From Methanolinea sp. (GTDB lineage: Archaea; Halobacteriota; Methanomicrobia; Methanomicrobiales; Methanospirillaceae), in the NCBI GenBank assembly GCA_018263335.1, contig JADFCY010000021.1, positions 1 through 33,918 of the forward strand: a stretch of 33,918 bases of DNA, read 5' to 3'. The first letter of the stretch is position 1. Every line of letters starts with the position of its first letter. The translations under genes were made by a program, and so were the position numbers. The notes under the pieces are model-generated. The model saw only the letters and a program-made list of their open reading frames with translations, ran no database searches and was not told the origin of the DNA. Below are positions 4,336 to 22,187 of this stretch, in pieces.

Positions 4336-5349
4336 ATGGAATTAAACGGCGTATCTGTGGCAAATGTTGCATCGGTGGTAAGAGAATACGAGGGGGTCAT
4401 GCGAAAGCATGCCATCGGCGAGATGGTAAAGGCCCTCCGCATCGAGTCTCCCGGTGTACTGGCCTCGTTTGGTGAGGATGCCGCGGTTATAGAACACGGC
4501 GAAGAGGTCCTTCTCCTCGCTGCAGACGGCATCTGGAGCCGGCTGATGGAAGCAGACCCTTACTGGGCAGGGTATTGTGCTGTCCTTGTCAACATCCACG
4601 ACATCGCCGCCATGGGAGGCCGCCCTCTTGCCATGGTGGATGTCTTTTCGATCTCAGATCCATGCATCCAGGAGCAGGTCATCGCGGGGATGCACGATGC
4701 TTCCGTCCAGTTCGGGGTCCCCATCGTCGGCGGGCACCTCCATCCTGACACTCCCTACAGCGTGATCGATGTAGCAATCCTTGGAACCGCCCCAAAGGAC
4801 TCGGTGATATATTCCCATACCGCGAAGGAGGGAGACTCCGTCATTGTTGCAGTCGACCTCAACGGGAGAGTCCATCCGTCCTGCATCCTTAACTGGGACT
4901 CCGTGACCATGAAGTCTCCCGAAGAGGTGAGGTCACAGGTCAGGGTGCTCGAAGGCCTGGGAAGGGACAGGCTGGTCACTGCCGGCAAAGACATCAGCAA
5001 CCCGGGAGTTATCGGGACTCTCGGCATGCTCCTCGAGGTGAGCGGGAAGGGGGCATCCATCGCACTTGACAGGCTCCCGATGCCTGACCTTCTGGCTCAT
5101 CATATGACCTTTGAGCAGTGGGTCAGGATTTACCCGGGGATGGGATTTGTCCTCACCGCACCGGGTCAGAACGTCCCCGAGATCTCCAGGCGCTTTGAGG
5201 AGGTCGGAATGACCGCAAGGATGGTAGGACACGTCACGGGCGACAGGATGCTCCGCGTGGAGCTCAGGGACGACTCAGCCCTCGTGTTTGATTTTGATAA
5301 AAATGGCATCATGCGCCTCTTTTCAGACGATGGCTCATGCCCAAAGTGA
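4336..5349 (+). CDS. Methanogenesis marker protein 2 (AIR synthase-related)
   Basis: The 337-residue protein belongs to the PurM/HypE/ThiL (AIR synthase-like) superfamily and matches methanogenesis marker 2, a protein found in methanogens. The N-terminal half shows the superfamily pattern of acidic ATP/Mg sites: FGEDAAVIEHG, AADGIWSRL, NIHDIAAMGGRPLAMVDVFS, followed by GGHLHPDTP. The C-terminal half contains KDISNPGVIGTLGMLLE, typical of the second AIRS domain. Its exact reaction is not established. It is the first gene of a two-gene unit with the marker 4/MtxX gene, which starts 13 bp before its stop codon; the overlap suggests translational coupling and a shared role. Confidence 0.92.
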   Translation: MELNGVSVANVASVVREYEGVMRKHAIGEMVKALRIESPGVLASFGEDAAVIEHGEEVLLLAADGIWSRLMEADPYWAGYCAVLVNIHDIAAMGGRPLAMVDVFSISDPCIQEQVIAGMHDASVQFGVPIVGGHLHPDTPYSVIDVAILGTAPKDSVIYSHTAKEGDSVIVAVDLNGRVHPSCILNWDSVTMKSPEEVRSQVRVLEGLGRDRLVTAGKDISNPGVIGTLGMLLEVSGKGASIALDRLPMPDLLAHHMTFEQWVRIYPGMGFVLTAPGQNVPEISRRFEEVGMTARMVGHVTGDRMLRVELRDDSALVFDFDKNGIMRLFSDDGSCPK

Positions 5350-6104
5350 AGATAGGGATCGGGGTCCTTGAAGAGAGCGAGAAGGTTGTCGAGAGCGTTC
5401 TCCGGTCCTGCTGTGCATCGATTACTGCCTGTTATTGCCGTCCTGGGGGAGTTGCAAGGCTAGGTGGCGTCGAAATCAGAGAAGATCCCAATCCCGGGCA
5501 GGCCCTGGTCCGCGACCTCTTCAATGGTACTCTCGACGCTGCCGTGAGGGGCACGCTCCCCTCCAACACAACCCTCTCGGCGCTCAAGAGCACGGCAGGT
5601 GTTGACAGCCTTGAGAGAGCCGCGGTCCTCGAGAGCGGGGATGGTACCATGTTCATCCTCGCCCCTGTGGGAGTTGACGAAGGGTGGACTGTCCAGGAAA
5701 AGGTGTCATTGGCCAGGAAAGCGGGAAGGCTCGCCCGGACACTCGGGCTCAGGGAGGGGGTGGCAATCCTCTCGGGCGGAAGGCTTGGCGACGCAGGCAG
5801 ACACCAAAGGGTGGACGAGAGCATGGCACAGGCTGAACTCGTCGCACGGCTTGCAGGGGCACGCCATTACGAGATCCTCATCGAGGAGGCAGCAAAGGAG
5901 GCAGGGGTCATTATCGCCCCTGACGGCATCTCTGGAAATTTGATCTTTCGTACGCTCACATTTCTCGGAAAGGGTCACGGACATGGCGCACCTGCCTTAA
6001 ATATCGACAGAGTCTTTGTAGATACCTCGCGCGCCTCGCCGGATTTTGTCAATGCGCTCCATCTCGCGAATTTATTGTCCAATACGCAAAAAACCGTTTT
6101 TTAA
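5337..6104 (+). CDS. mtxX: Methanogenesis marker protein 4 (MtxX-like)
   Basis: The 255-residue product matches the MtxX/methanogenesis marker 4 family, annotated as a putative methyltransferase with a phosphate acetyl/butyryltransferase-like fold. Recognisable features are the N-terminal KVKIGIGVLE strand, GTLDAAVRGTLPS, a central GVAILSGGRLGD and the C-terminal PDGISGNLIFRTLTFLGKG followed by GAPALN. The activity is not proven. The ATG at 5337 lies inside the end of the marker 2 gene, in a different frame, and the two overlap by 13 bp. No promoter is visible between them, so it is co-transcribed. Downstream is the independent histone promoter. Confidence 0.9.
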   Translation: MPKVKIGIGVLEESEKVVESVLRSCCASITACYCRPGGVARLGGVEIREDPNPGQALVRDLFNGTLDAAVRGTLPSNTTLSALKSTAGVDSLERAAVLESGDGTMFILAPVGVDEGWTVQEKVSLARKAGRLARTLGLREGVAILSGGRLGDAGRHQRVDESMAQAELVARLAGARHYEILIEEAAKEAGVIIAPDGISGNLIFRTLTFLGKGHGHGAPALNIDRVFVDTSRASPDFVNALHLANLLSNTQKTVF

Positions 6105-7778: not shown

Positions 7779-8485
7779 TCAGCCGCCTCCATGGCTTCCC
7801 GCAGGTGGAGTCTCCCGCTGTAGAGGGCAGATCCAAGTACCACGCCAGAAGACCCGAGCTGCCTGAGGACCCTGATGTCCTCTACGGTGGTGATACCGCC
7901 CGCAACCGTGACGGGGAGCCGGGTGTGGCGCAGCAACCGCGCAACGGGTTCCGGGTCAATGCCGGACTGGAGCCCTTCAACGTCCACGTTGGTAAAGAGG
8001 AGTGCGCCTGCACCCATATCCTCAAATCGTTCTGCCCATACAAGATAGTCACCCCCGCTCTTCTGCCACCCCTCGATGGTGATCTCGCCGCCTCGTGCAT
8101 CGACGCCCGCCATGATCCGGGAGCTGCCGAATTCATCACTCAACCGTTTCAGGACAGGGGGGTCCCTGGTCGCAAGTGTCCCGAGGATTATCCGCTCTAC
8201 ACCTGTCTCAAGCCATGCGGATGCATCTTCATATGATCGGATGCCTCCCCCAAGTTGGACTTCGATGCCAGTCTCCTGCACGATCTCCCTGATCTTCTGG
8301 GCGTTCGACGACGAGTCTCCAAACGCCCCGTCAAGGTTCACGACATGCAGGCATCTCGCACCGAGATCCAGCCAGCGCCGTGCACAGTCCAGAGGGTCGC
8401 CAAAAACCGTTGCCGAGTCCCTCTTTCCCTGAACCAGCTGGACGCACTCTCCCTTCAGAATATCCACAGCGGGAAATACGCGCAT
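7775..8485 (-). CDS. hisA: ProFAR isomerase (phosphoribosylformimino-AICAR-P isomerase)
   Basis: The 236-residue TIM barrel catalyses the Amadori rearrangement of ProFAR to PRFAR in histidine synthesis. [18 protein letters not shown] contains the N-terminal catalytic aspartate, and [15 protein letters not shown] contains the phosphate/active-site region. [11 protein letters not shown] and [11 protein letters not shown] are the C-terminal phosphate-binding loops. It starts 1 bp after the hisG stop and overlaps hisB by 4 bp. Length is normal. Confidence 0.97.
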
Positions 8486-8486
8486 G

Positions 8487-9404
8487 TCAGGGGATCATCC
8501 GTGCGATGGGCATGACCAGGATATCCCGCGCCCCAGACCTCTTGAGGAGGTGTATCAACTGGTAAACCCTCTCTTCGTCAACGACTGCGTGAATGGCGAC
8601 CATGTCCTGCCTTGAAGCGACCTCCATCACCGTGGGCCCTGAAAGACCGGGGAGGACAGAGGTTACCTTATCGACACAGGCACGCCTCGCGTTCATCATC
8701 AGGTAGCACTGCCCCCTCGCCCTGATCACGCTCTCGAGTGCAAGGACGATCTCCTCAATCTTTGTGCCTTTCGAGGCGAGGGATCCGCGATTCGCAATCA
8801 ACATGGTGGTCGTCTGAAGGACCGTATCAAGGACCCTGAGGCGGTTCGAACGGAGCGTGTTCCCCGAGCTCGAGAGATCGATGATCGCTTCGGCAATGCC
8901 GAGGTACGGTGTAGCCTCGCATGCCCCGCCGACCGGCACGAGTGTGACGTGGATCCCCATCTCCTGGAAATATCGCCTTGATATGACAGGAAACTCGGTT
9001 GCCACCCTTGCCCCCTCAAGGTCTCCTGGAGATGAGAACCCGGCATCTTCCCTGACGGCAAGGACGAGTGATGCGGATCCGATCTTCAGGTCAAGGAGCT
9101 CGGATACATCGGACTCGCGCTCGAGAACCATGTCATGGCCTGTGATCCCCAGATCTGCCGCACCGTTGGCCACGTATTCCGGGATATCCACGGGCCTTGC
9201 GAAGAGGATCTCCACGTGGGGGTCGGGGGTGCGGGAGACAAGGCGACGTTCTCCGATATCAAGGAGGTGGAGCCCGCTCTTCTCCATCAAATCGTTGACC
9301 GGCCCCGAAATCCGCCCCTTGTTGGGAATGGCCAGGCGTACAGCCTGGGCCCCTGGAGTCGCGTCAGGACTCTTTTTTTTATCAGAACGTCTTGATCTCG
9401 CCAC
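8487..9404 (-). CDS. hisG: ATP phosphoribosyltransferase, long form
   Basis: This enzyme makes phosphoribosyl-ATP, the first and feedback-regulated step of histidine synthesis. The catalytic region opens with VRLAIPNKGRISGPV and includes DLGITGHDMV; the PRPP/phosphate loop is IDLSSSGNTLRSN. The final ~75 residues (from about GQCYLMMNARRA) form the ACT-like HisG_C regulatory domain, so this is the long form that does not need HisZ. The start is uncertain: no ATG, GTG or TTG lies between the mat stop codon and the conserved RLAIPNKG. The nearest in-frame candidate is GTG 9404, inside the end of mat, giving 305 residues with about 26 extra N-terminal residues. Longer in-frame starts reach 9482. 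Confidence 0.9.
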   Translation of the reverse strand: MARSRRSDKKKSPDATPGAQAVRLAIPNKGRISGPVNDLMEKSGLHLLDIGERRLVSRTPDPHVEILFARPVDIPEYVANGAADLGITGHDMVLERESDVSELLDLKIGSASLVLAVREDAGFSSPGDLEGARVATEFPVISRRYFQEMGIHVTLVPVGGACEATPYLGIAEAIIDLSSSGNTLRSNRLRVLDTVLQTTTMLIANRGSLASKGTKIEEIVLALESVIRARGQCYLMMNARRACVDKVTSVLPGLSGPTVMEVASRQDMVAIHAVVDEERVYQLIHLLKRSGARDILVMPIARMIP

Positions 9405-18653: not shown

Positions 18654-19418
18654 TTAAACCTTACTGGAAAAGGCAGTTTTCTCCACGTGATCAAGGACAT
18701 ACCGCCGGATCCTTGCAAATTCCGCGCCTGTCCTATCCCTTGGGCGCGGGAGATCGATTTGAACCATGTCTTTGATGGTCCCCGGGCGTGCAGTGAGGAC
18801 CACCACCCTGTCCGAGAGGAAAACTGCCTCGTCCACGCTGTGGGTGACAAAAATGACAGTCTTTTTGGTCTTCTCCCATATGTCCAGCAACTCCCGCTGG
18901 AGCATGTTCCGGGTCTGGGCGTCCAGTGCACCAAACGGTTCGTCCATCAGAAGGATCTGCGGGTCAATCGCAAGCGCCCTCGCAACGGCCACCCGCTGGC
19001 GCATGCCTCCCGAGAGCTCGAAGGGGTAGTTCTTCGCAAAATCGACGAGACCTACAAGTTCCAGGAACTCGAGGGCCTTCTCCCTTCTCCTCTGCTTCTC
19101 CATCCCCTTCATCTCGAGGCCAAACGCGATGTTGTCGAGCACCGTCCTCCAGGGATAGAGTGAGTATTCCTGGAATATCATTGCCATCCTTGGACAGGGG
19201 CCATCGATCCTGTTCCCGTCAAGGAGGATGGACCCTCCGGTCGCGTGGTCGAGCCCTGCAATGATCCGAAGCAGGGTGGTCTTCCCGCATCCTGATGGGC
19301 CAAGGACGGAGACGAACTCGCCGTCCGCGACCTCAAGGTTGATGTCGGAGAGGGCCTGCACCTCCGTCTTGCCTTCTCCCTGGAATGACTTGGAGAGGCC
19401 CTTCAGGACGAGGGTCAT
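18654..19418 (-). CDS. ABC importer ATPase (SsuB/TauB/NrtD-like)
   Basis: The 254-residue ATPase energises the importer encoded by the next two genes. Walker A is GPSGCGKTT, the signature is LSGGMRQRVA, Walker B is ILLMDEPF, and the H-loop is VTHSVDEAVFLSD. It matches the nitrate/sulfonate/taurine ATPase group in size and sequence. I start at ATG 19418 (MTLVLKGLSKSF), with GGAGG 10 nt upstream; the open frame runs back to 19529 but that part overlaps the permease gene in another frame. It is the last gene of the operon, 37 bp after the permease. Confidence 0.95.
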   Translation of the reverse strand: MTLVLKGLSKSFQGEGKTEVQALSDINLEVADGEFVSVLGPSGCGKTTLLRIIAGLDHATGGSILLDGNRIDGPCPRMAMIFQEYSLYPWRTVLDNIAFGLEMKGMEKQRRREKALEFLELVGLVDFAKNYPFELSGGMRQRVAVARALAIDPQILLMDEPFGALDAQTRNMLQRELLDIWEKTKKTVIFVTHSVDEAVFLSDRVVVLTARPGTIKDMVQIDLPRPRDRTGAEFARIRRYVLDHVEKTAFSSKV

Positions 19419-19455: not shown

Positions 19456-20220
19456 TCATCGCTCAAGGCCCCTCCACGAGAACCATTTCTTCTCGACTTG
19501 CTTGAAGACAAAGTCAATGAGGAGGCCAATGACGCCGATCACCACCATCCCGGCGATGATCAGGTTGGTCTGGCCGAAGTTGTATGCATAGAGGATGAGG
19601 TATCCAAGCCCCTTTGAGATGCCGGGTAACCACTCCGCTGCAACCACACACATCCATGCAATACCAAAGCCTACACGCAGACCCGTCCATATGGTAGGGG
19701 CGGCCCCCGGGAGGACAACCTTTGTCATGATCTGCTGTTCCTTGGCCCCCAGCGTGGTCGCCACCTCGATCCATGTCTTCTTGACCGATCTCACCCCGTC
19801 AACCGTGTTGAGGAGGATTGGGAAGAACGCACCGATGAAGATGATGAAGACGATTGAGGTGAGCCCGATCTTGAACCATGCGAGTGCCAGCGGTACCCAC
19901 GCAAGCGGAGGGATCGGCCTGAGGAGCTCAATCGTAGAGTCGAAGAAATCGTTGAGCAGGGTTGACCTCCCCATGAGGATCCCTATTGGTATTGCAACCG
20001 CTGCGGCAACGAGGAACCCGAGGCCCACGCGCTGGATGCTGACAGACGCATTCTCTACAAGGCTTCCGGTCCCGAGGGTGTATGCCGGGCTGAACGGATG
20101 TAAAAGGATAGGTATGACGGTCTCAAGGGAGGGAACTATGAATGGATTGTTGACGACCCATGATGCAACCTCCCAGCCTATGATAAGAAGTATGGGGAGG
20201 AGGAACCGGAGATACCTCAT
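19456..20220 (-). CDS. ABC importer permease (SsuC/TauC-like)
   Basis: The 254-residue BPD_transp_1 permease has about six transmembrane helices, and the cytoplasmic EAA-like loop GAAPTIWTGLRVGFGIAWM couples it to the ATPase. The family imports sulfonates, taurine, nitrate or other small organic anions; the substrate here cannot be told from sequence. It begins 13 bp after the solute-binding protein stop, with AAGGGGA as ribosome site. It probably works as a homodimer. Confidence 0.94.
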   Translation of the reverse strand: MRYLRFLLPILLIIGWEVASWVVNNPFIVPSLETVIPILLHPFSPAYTLGTGSLVENASVSIQRVGLGFLVAAAVAIPIGILMGRSTLLNDFFDSTIELLRPIPPLAWVPLALAWFKIGLTSIVFIIFIGAFFPILLNTVDGVRSVKKTWIEVATTLGAKEQQIMTKVVLPGAAPTIWTGLRVGFGIAWMCVVAAEWLPGISKGLGYLILYAYNFGQTNLIIAGMVVIGVIGLLIDFVFKQVEKKWFSWRGLER

Positions 20221-20233
20221 TGTCCCCTTAAGG

Positions 20234-21469
20234 TTATCCTTCCTTCACAGATAAACCGCTTGCTTCCAGGGAATAGCGGATCATGACGTCCTGGATGGAT
20301 CCTTTGCCTGGAGCGGCGATCTTGAGCGGCTTTCCTGCAGCAGAGCGCTCCTTTGCCCATGCGACGAAACTGTTCCAGTCAGTGGCAGGGGAGTCATCTG
20401 TGACCACGACCCCGGAGCCTTCGAAATTGATCGCCATGATGATCCTGACAGGCGTCCCTTTGTCGGCCGCAGAGATTGCAGGGGGGTTTCCTACCAGCGC
20501 AAACTGGATGTTGTCTGTTGCCATCAGTTGCATTAATTGCGGGCCGGCATCGCCAGAGATCAGCTTCAGCTCGGCCACCTTTTGCCCGTTCACGATGAGG
20601 TCCGCAGTATCGGGCCTTGATGCGGCAGGGTCCCTTGGCTTGAGGGCGATTCCGTAGGTGTTGTTGAAGTACTCCCACTTCTTGATGGCCACGAAGAGCG
20701 CCGCATGGTGATCCGACATCAGGTAGCCCACTCCAACTGTGCCTCTCACCGGAGCAGGTGTCTGGATCCTCCCCTGGTCCACCATGGACTGTGCCGCTTC
20801 ATACGGAGTGGGATCAAAGAGGAGTGCTTTTGAATCCGCATCAGTTGAGTCCTTCAGGGACCCGGTGAGCACCTGGAGTTCTCTTAACGCATGGACGAAT
20901 TCGATGTTTGAGTCCATCCACTGATCAGTGGGCTCATTCACGAATTTCACCGTGGGGAAAGCGCGTTTGAGTACATCAACGGACGAGACCGAGATGTCAC
21001 CGTAGGTGAAGTTGCCTTTTCCGGCCAGCCAGTCTGCGACGATCTCTGCACTCTCATCCGGGTGCTCCTCGAGGTACCTGGTGGCGAGGATCATCGAGGC
21101 AGTCATGGCATTGACGAGATCCGGGTGCTCTGAGATAAATTTCTCGTTGGCAGTGAAGACGCAGCAGGGGTGATCCTTCCACTTGCCTTCCGGAGGCATA
21201 TCCCCCGAATACACGAGGACCTTGCCTATTCCTGCCATTGGCGGGACTTCGACGAAAGGCTGCCACGCGATATAGCCGTCAATCTGATCCGTGCCAAGAA
21301 GGGTGGGCATAGGCCCTGTCCCTTTGGTGTACGTGACGATGACATGGGCCCCTGCGGGAGGTGCCGTGGGGGTGGGGGTCCCCGAAGGAGGTGTTGGAGT
21401 GATACATCCGGCGATCAGTGCTGCGCACAACAGCATGCCGACGATTGCACACGCATGCGACATTTTCAT
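20234..21469 (-). CDS. Solute-binding lipoprotein with halves in permuted order
   Basis: A 411-residue NMT1/SsuA-like solute-binding protein. The start at ATG 21469 gives a lipoprotein signal (LIAGC, lipid-anchored Cys22) and a Pro/Thr linker. Residues about 36-230 resemble the part that is normally C-terminal: LLGTDQIDGYIAWQPF, then FISEHPDLVNAM and ATRYLEEHPDESAEIVADW. Residues 244-411 resemble the part that is normally N-terminal: VGVGYLMSDHHAALFVAIK, then GDAGPQLMQLMATDNIQFALVG, and finally PLKIAAPGKGSIQDVMIRY and LEASGLSVKEG before the stop. The family order is thus reversed, consistent with circular permutation at the interdomain crossover. The reading frame is intact, so it is not an obvious pseudogene. 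It is first in the operon, and its substrate is unknown. Confidence 0.88.
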   Translation of the reverse strand: MKMSHACAIVGMLLCAALIAGCITPTPPSGTPTPTAPPAGAHVIVTYTKGTGPMPTLLGTDQIDGYIAWQPFVEVPPMAGIGKVLVYSGDMPPEGKWKDHPCCVFTANEKFISEHPDLVNAMTASMILATRYLEEHPDESAEIVADWLAGKGNFTYGDISVSSVDVLKRAFPTVKFVNEPTDQWMDSNIEFVHALRELQVLTGSLKDSTDADSKALLFDPTPYEAAQSMVDQGRIQTPAPVRGTVGVGYLMSDHHAALFVAIKKWEYFNNTYGIALKPRDPAASRPDTADLIVNGQKVAELKLISGDAGPQLMQLMATDNIQFALVGNPPAISAADKGTPVRIIMAINFEGSGVVVTDDSPATDWNSFVAWAKERSAAGKPLKIAAPGKGSIQDVMIRYSLEASGLSVKEG

Positions 21470-21656: not shown

Positions 21657-22187
21657 ATGCAGATCGACCCGGTAGACCGGCTGGTGAAAGCAGCGCTCAT
21701 CTCTGATGAAGAGTTTGTCCATACCCTGCGAGAAGTGATGCAGCGTGACCTGCGGATAAGCGTGAGGGAGCTTGCCGAAAAGAGCGGGGTCGCGCAGAGC
21801 TCTCTTTACAAGATAGTGCATGGGAAAAGGTCCCCGAATCTCTCTACCCTGCGTGCAGTGATTCACGCGATGAGGAGGATCACCCATTCCTCCGAGGGAG
21901 AGTTCATCGGCCTGATCGCCGCCCGCCCGGTACTCGACGTGATTCAGGAGCGAAACGCGGAGGTCGACGGAAGGAAGGTCAGGGTACGTGAGTATCCCGT
22001 GCATACCATGGAAGAGGCCACGATCGCCGCGATACGTGCAGAGAGGGAGGGGGCAATGGCTATCGTCTGTGCGCCCATTGTCAGCAGCGTGATCGAGCAG
22101 CTCGTGAACGTGCCGGTCGCCACGATCATCCCGAGAGAATCAGTGCAGAGGGCAATCGAGCTCGCGGCCCGGAAGGCGTGGCTTTAA
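21657..22187 (+). CDS. HTH transcriptional regulator, divergent from the ABC operon
   Basis: The 176-residue protein has a helix-turn-helix of the Xre/lambda type at about residues 33-65 (ISVRELAEKSGVAQSSLYKIVHG, written here only as the RELAEKSGVAQSSLYKI core). The C-terminal domain (about 80-176) resembles a small ligand-sensing alpha/beta domain: it has MEEATIAAIRAEREGAMAIVCAPIV and NVPVATIIPRESVQRAIELA, similar in style to the PrpR N-terminal sensor, but I am not sure of the family. The ATG has no ribosome site. Its position, head-to-head with the importer with shared repeats between them, suggests it regulates that operon. Confidence 0.85.
   Translation: MQIDPVDRLVKAALISDEEFVHTLREVMQRDLRISVRELAEKSGVAQSSLYKIVHGKRSPNLSTLRAVIHAMRRITHSSEGEFIGLIAARPVLDVIQERNAEVDGRKVRVREYPVHTMEEATIAAIRAEREGAMAIVCAPIVSSVIEQLVNVPVATIIPRESVQRAIELAARKAWL

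Follow-up and report, generated by a model that had tools for sequence, protein, structure and literature searches.

The best-described relatives of the protein discussed here are TauA and SsuA, which are type II solute-binding proteins (cluster F; NMT1_2, TIGR01728). In TauA, domain I is made of residues 23-104 and 202-319, domain II is made of residues 105-201, and the hinges are at 103-106 and 200-202; Asp205 and Glu106 hold the amine of taurine, and Gly61 and Gly79 hold the sulfonate (PMC6906117). In M. acetivorans, ssuA and ssuC belong to a coenzyme-M-specific ABC transporter and are induced by coenzyme M starvation (PMC12068725), and nearly all methanogens are described as having ssuABC as their genes for coenzyme M transport (PMC10658910). 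In the literature, we found just one ABC binding protein with a natural circular permutation, a member of the type I glucose family: TpMglB-2 (Tp0684) from Treponema pallidum, or "Type Ic," is a naturally permuted, tethered protein that binds its ligand and closes (PMC4990184). Our literature search found no report of a permuted binding protein from the SsuA/NMT1 family.

The window, which is the whole stretch of DNA that was analysed (33,918 nucleotides from a Methanolinea genome), encodes such a protein (Table 1). Each half is homologous to TauA and SsuA along its length, and, as in those systems, the glycines of the sulfonate site are kept and the operon encodes a binding protein, a permease, and an ATPase. 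Unlike in TauA and SsuA, the halves are swapped, which would place the termini and the lipid anchor in lobe II; also, the amine ligands are replaced and a pair of cysteines is predicted at the pocket. Our best explanation, to which we assign a probability of roughly 0.78, is that this is the permuted lipoprotein of a coenzyme M importer, with its ends in lobe II, and that it is the host's source of the cofactor.

Table 1. Features of the transporter locus (positions within the window)
Feature	Position	Strand	Basis
Circularly permuted SsuA/NMT1-type solute-binding lipoprotein, 411 aa	20234..21469	-	frame, Pfam, homologues, BLASTP
Signal peptide and lipobox IAGC with lipidated Cys22, residues 1-22	21404..21469	-	sequence
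Pro/Thr-rich spacer from the lipid anchor to lobe II, residues 23-41	21347..21403	-	sequence
Canonical second half, residues 42-235	20765..21346	-	Pfam and BLASTP; lobe borders from TauA
HPCC motif, residues 100-103	21161..21172	-	alignment
Linker joining the old C-terminus to the old N-terminus, residues 236-243	20741..20764	-	BLASTP
Canonical first half, residues 244-411	20237..20740	-	BLASTP and alignment
ABC permease (BPD_transp_1; nearest NCBIfam SaoP, below cut-off)	19456..20220	-	profile matches
ABC ATPase (nearest NCBIfam SaoA, below cut-off)	18654..19418	-	profile matches
Divergent HTH regulator, weak PrpR_N-like C-terminal match	21657..22187	+	profile, conserved neighbourhood

Order of the two halves

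An earlier note on this DNA had proposed a circularly permuted binding lipoprotein with an intact frame and a proper signal peptide, followed 13 bp later by a permease. All of this holds. The gene is a single frame from the ATG at 21469 to the stop at 20234, the lipobox is IAGC, and the permease's ATG lies at 20220, 13 bp beyond the gene for the binding protein. Two kinds of comparison establish the permutation. First, the protein matches Pfam's NMT1_2 (PF13379) with 99.3 bits, as compared to a gathering score of 24.7, but the match is split into two stretches, and the N-terminal stretch (residues 52-148) corresponds to positions 162-251 of the 252 in the profile, which is the profile's second half. 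Second, BLASTP against eleven canonical relatives gave two crossing HSPs every time, and these covered most of the mature protein. For example, residues 41-219 align to L101 215-381 and residues 244-410 align to L101 49-208, so the break lies between the residues equivalent to L101 208 and 215. A canonical query against a canonical relative gave a single collinear HSP.

The linker is shorter than first described. The alignment to L102 extends to residue 235 (L102 394 of 395), and the other half begins at 244-245; a linker of about 8 residues (the IQTPAPVR region) replaces the proposed linker of about 14 (the QGRIQTPAPV region). With borders taken from TauA, the segment before the linker would contain the remainder of lobe II, the second hinge, and the C-terminal part of lobe I, and the segment after it would contain the N-terminal part of lobe I, the first hinge, and the start of lobe II, ending in GLSVKEG.

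These results also bear on how the protein should be classified. It scores above the threshold for NMT1_2, has the signal peptide and lipobox of an exported or lipid-anchored protein, and is encoded with a permease and an ATPase, as expected for that family, but its halves are not in the canonical order. It falls short of the curated cut-off for TIGR01728 (SsuA_fam), with 83.5 bits instead of 163.5, again in two stretches. The closest names for the permease and the ATPase are from the Sec-assisted organometallic system (SaoX/SaoP/SaoA; PMC13188914), but all of the scores are below the curated cut-offs, and SaoX (NF040735) itself matches just the first stretch, with 52.6 bits against a cut-off of 300. 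The protein matches NMT1/TauA families only, and so it does not belong with the type I hexose-binding proteins.

Conservation and number of origins

The survey of related methanogens covered 199 Methanomicrobiales genomes; about 95 of them (a hand count of the match rows) encode a full-length copy with the same permuted order in a single frame, at 31-96% identity. Methanolinea and Methanoregulaceae MAGs are among the named relatives that carry it. In the Methanomicrobiales loci that we examined, the main permuted copy mostly has rpl10e on one side and, on the other, the divergent HTH regulator and then argH and gatD, and these shared surroundings imply that it was inherited with its site. Full-length conservation across the order, together with the conserved operon and regulator, supports the note's impression that the gene is functional. 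Of 53 permuted homologues, 44 have the lipobox pattern.

There is almost no chance that the swapped order is an artefact of assembly or sequencing. Most of the genomes involved are MAGs, but the order recurs across these many genomes down to 31% identity, with conserved flanks, and single-contig assemblies (G064, G042, and G011 among them) carry it too. For the window's locus, this recurrence rules out misassembly, which the note had named as a way that its proposal could fail.

Half-profile scanning of the retrieved loci identified 52 permuted proteins, 53 canonical proteins, and 1 mixed protein. Beyond Methanomicrobiales, the same cut is found in four families (f9, f26, f31, and f36; clade B below) and in a single genome from Methanophagales (L036/L084; clade A below). 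Among the 31 Desulfobacterota genomes with matches, of 247 searched, we saw no permuted copies, and a scan of viral contigs for more homologues found none. Matches in G081, G137, and G117 were considered as unpermuted close relatives, but reading the strands shows that all three are permuted.

Several of these loci have features of their own. Two permuted binding-protein genes lie in tandem, in one operon, at L060 2074-4670 (G122) and also in G138:C65. L041 and L044-L049 form a diverged subfamily of permuted paralogues, several of which have an N-terminal membrane helix and no lipobox; their substrate may differ. In L043 (1966-3224; G172), a permuted gene is split across two overlapping frames and is possibly a pseudogene. 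In family f14, a KaiC-like ATPase and two small genes of unknown function come right after the importer operon (L143 11731-13092 and L144 13339-14733).

Within this family, archaea have acquired the permutation independently on at least three occasions. In a tree of re-ordered binding proteins (87 rows), the permuted state requires three changes: there are two separate permuted clades, A and B, plus L069. Clade A (29 rows) groups with canonical Desulfobacterota and Nitrospirota proteins that share an insert, and clade B (8 rows) is near a canonical Desulfobacterota clade that is marked by STVQDFLL. The permease tree recovers the same two clades; both trees are from short searches, and some canonical rows have long branches.

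The third event, at L069 (1865-2953; G233), is a recent permutation in place. Compared to a canonical congener, L081, the blocks of the mature gene have been exchanged, while the signal peptide, the stop, and the flanking genes and DNA are collinear; the proteins are 70-84% identical. Three relatives in L069's family have the canonical order. By our reading of the sequence, the inner join of L069, ASGTPKVKDTVKVGW, still resembles the spacer after the lipobox of L081, PTGTPGVKDLVKIGW, as would be expected if a tandem duplicate had been trimmed. This event is seen in just one genome, a MAG of 220 contigs, which is a point in favor of an artefact; on the other side, besides its collinear flanks, the gene possesses a signal peptide, a spacer, and a stop of its own. 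We also considered whether both ends of permuted proteins share a copy of one strand, as a remnant of tandem duplication, but this was not significant (best p 0.03, n=14 proteins).

Could there have been one permutation, ancestral to all of the copies, with later reversions or transfers? Clades A and B do have the same cut position. However, constraining them to form one clade costs 64.6 log-likelihood units and is rejected (p-AU 5.8e-5), they lie near different canonical groups, and the permease tree agrees. L069 has a different cut, for a total of two cut positions, and its sister within the genus is canonical. A reversion would demand that the change be undone exactly. We consider a single origin to be improbable.

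A probable link to coenzyme M

This operon probably encodes SsuABC, the importer by which methanogens take up coenzyme M. First, it shares its site and its regulator with canonical transporters. In families f2 and f5, the same rpl10e/argH site encodes a similar ATPase together with a binding protein and a permease that are canonical, in the order rpl10e-ATPase-permease-binding protein and adjoining argH. A canonical transporter in G008 adjoins the same regulator (258 bits), which is thus kept beside copies of both kinds, and in family f8, which is Methanosarcina-like by kinship, a similar but more diverged regulator adjoins a canonical transporter. The likeness to the described SsuABC (PMC12068725, PMC10658910) lies in the layout of regulator, binding protein, permease, and ATPase and in the use of the same site in sister families; we liken the canonical counterpart to M. 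acetivorans ssuA by this layout and by kinship. The difference is that the binding proteins in f2, f5, and f8 are canonical, while the window's binding protein and permease are in another clade.

Second, genes for coenzyme M synthesis adjoin relatives. No coenzyme M genes lie alongside the window's own operon. In Methanophagales L036, the permuted gene comes after a fused sulfopyruvate decarboxylase that is above both cut-offs, and in L134, from clade B, it comes after cysteate synthase and sulfopyruvate decarboxylase. (Between the decarboxylase and the permuted gene, L134 also encodes a second NMT1_2-like protein, at 7950-8825.) L036 can be compared to a canonical operon, L082: the DNA is 83% identical from ComDE to the start of the binding-protein gene and 79% identical over the ATPase, which groups with Methanophagales. 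The intervening binding protein and permease are of the permuted type, with 46% and 62% identity to their counterparts in the window. This implies that a permuted pair replaced the canonical pair within a coenzyme M operon. L036 2706-5467 also has a second stretch that resembles a permease (about 4729-5452); it is broken across two frames and is possibly a decaying copy.

Third, the host seems to need the cofactor. The window's genome (G000; 99.18% complete) encodes McrA (946 bits), and our profile search of this MAG did not find ComD or ComA. Its best matches to cysteate synthase (92 bits, cut-off 324.9) and to methanogenesis marker 16 (ComF; 159.6 bits, cut-off 364) are below the cut-offs. 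ComD also had no match in 10 of 11 sampled genomes of the genus, which are MAG based. From these absences in a MAG, the host is predicted to be a coenzyme M auxotroph, with the importer as its likely supply.

The pocket fits with this ligand. In our alignments, TauA's Gly61 and Gly79 correspond to invariant Gly309 and Gly327, Asp205 corresponds to Cys103 of the HPCC motif, and Glu106 corresponds to Gly353. Where taurine has an amine, coenzyme M has a thiol, and the replacement of the amine's ligands by Cys and Gly fits this difference. The cysteine pair is kept in the main part of clade A, in clade B, and in nearly all of the archaeal canonical relatives, and it is lost in part of the L041-L049 paralogue subfamily. 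The motif is also conserved in Desulfobacterota relatives, which need not use coenzyme M; the cysteine pair is therefore consistent with coenzyme M but is not proof.

There is a small but appreciable chance that the solute is something else: taurine, another sulfonate, or a metal-organic or thiol compound of the kind proposed for the Sao system. The conservation of HPCC in Desulfobacterota points that way, as do the nearest named families of the permease and ATPase (SaoP and SaoA) and the binding of several sulfonates by TauA (PMC6906117). However, the Sao scores are below the cut-offs, TauA's amine ligands are replaced (Glu106 by Gly and Asp205 by Cys), coenzyme M genes adjoin relatives of both topologies, and the host seems to lack coenzyme M synthesis. 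We prefer coenzyme M, given the shared site and regulator, the synthesis genes beside relatives, the exchange in L036, and the host without ComA or ComD.

Lobes, hinges, and the lipid anchor

In our alignments to TauA, the chain number is the residue number minus 21, which fits Gly61, Gly79, Glu106, Thr132, and Asp205. The cut shared by the window's protein and clades A and B aligns to chain position ~127-129 (TauA residue ~149-151), and the cut of L069 aligns to ~90 (TauA residue ~112). Every cut that we mapped lies in domain II, past hinge 1 and ahead of hinge 2. Cuts at these places would preserve both hinge crossings, join the old termini on domain I, and put the new N-terminus and the lipid or membrane helix that it carries on domain II. 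By this alignment, the lipid anchor appears to have shifted from lobe I to lobe II with the hinge crossings intact. The note had expected a change in hinge connectivity, which is not supported, and a change in the tether point, which is: 7-20 residues would separate the anchor from the strand that opens the second half of lobe II, as the spacer from the lipobox to lobe II has this length in most homologues from clades A and B.

AlphaFold2 reached a pLDDT of 42 with a seven-row alignment; with twelve rows, including canonical half fragments, the best model had a pLDDT of 66 and a pTM of 0.61, which is not reliable. Foldseek gave no match at E<=0.001. The top matches from VIA-align were other binding proteins, with Z of 6 or less (OpuAC, Z 6.0 over 120 residues); TauA and SsuA were absent from its rows, which we do not count against the fold. 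None of the solved structures that were matched had the permuted order. Since the monomer model is not confident, we considered whether the halves might not close on each other, so that the protein forms a swapped dimer or is a sensor without transport. This is very unlikely: judged against TauA, the linker and the ends would allow a monomer, the permuted genes come with genes for a permease and an ATPase, and in a coenzyme M operon a permuted copy took the place of a canonical one.

We propose that a canonical SsuA/TauA-like ancestor underwent circular permutation, which would have given new ends in lobe II. The lipid on Cys22 and the short spacer would then keep lobe II, rather than lobe I, close to the membrane. 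With both hinge strands retained, the lobes should still be able to close over the ligand, and the closed protein would pass it to the permease and ATPase from the neighboring genes. Coenzyme M (2-mercaptoethanesulfonate) is the most likely ligand: its sulfonate may be held by Gly309, Gly327, and the loop at 391-393, with the thiol toward Cys102 and Cys103. As the host has methyl-coenzyme M reductase and apparently lacks known synthesis genes, the importer probably supplies the cofactor.

More tentatively, the permutation might be a recurrent, selected change in archaeal importers of coenzyme M (a sulfonate), with tethering by lobe II itself being advantageous; this is possible but doubtful. 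A tether on lobe II might better orient the closed protein to the permease in cells that lack an outer membrane. The authors of the TpMglB-2 study likewise suggested a tie to tethering (PMC4990184). Both proteins are natural circular permutations of a tethered binding protein. TpMglB-2, however, is a bacterial protein from a type I glucose/galactose family, with a fourth lobe crossing, an added segment, and a cut in the N lobe, whereas the window's protein is archaeal and from a type II sulfonate family, both of its two crossings seem to be kept, and there were at least three events.

The novelty lies in finding permutation in the type II sulfonate family, in its having arisen repeatedly, in an anchor that each time appears to have moved to lobe II, and in a probable link to the supply of coenzyme M. 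With three events in one family, including a recent one with a congener that is 70-84% identical, both the origin and the benefit of circular permutation become testable. For an essential cofactor of methanogenesis, the host seems to rely on this protein. More broadly, homology models with the canonical order score the permuted protein too low, so poor annotation of the coenzyme M importer is probable in many Methanomicrobiales.
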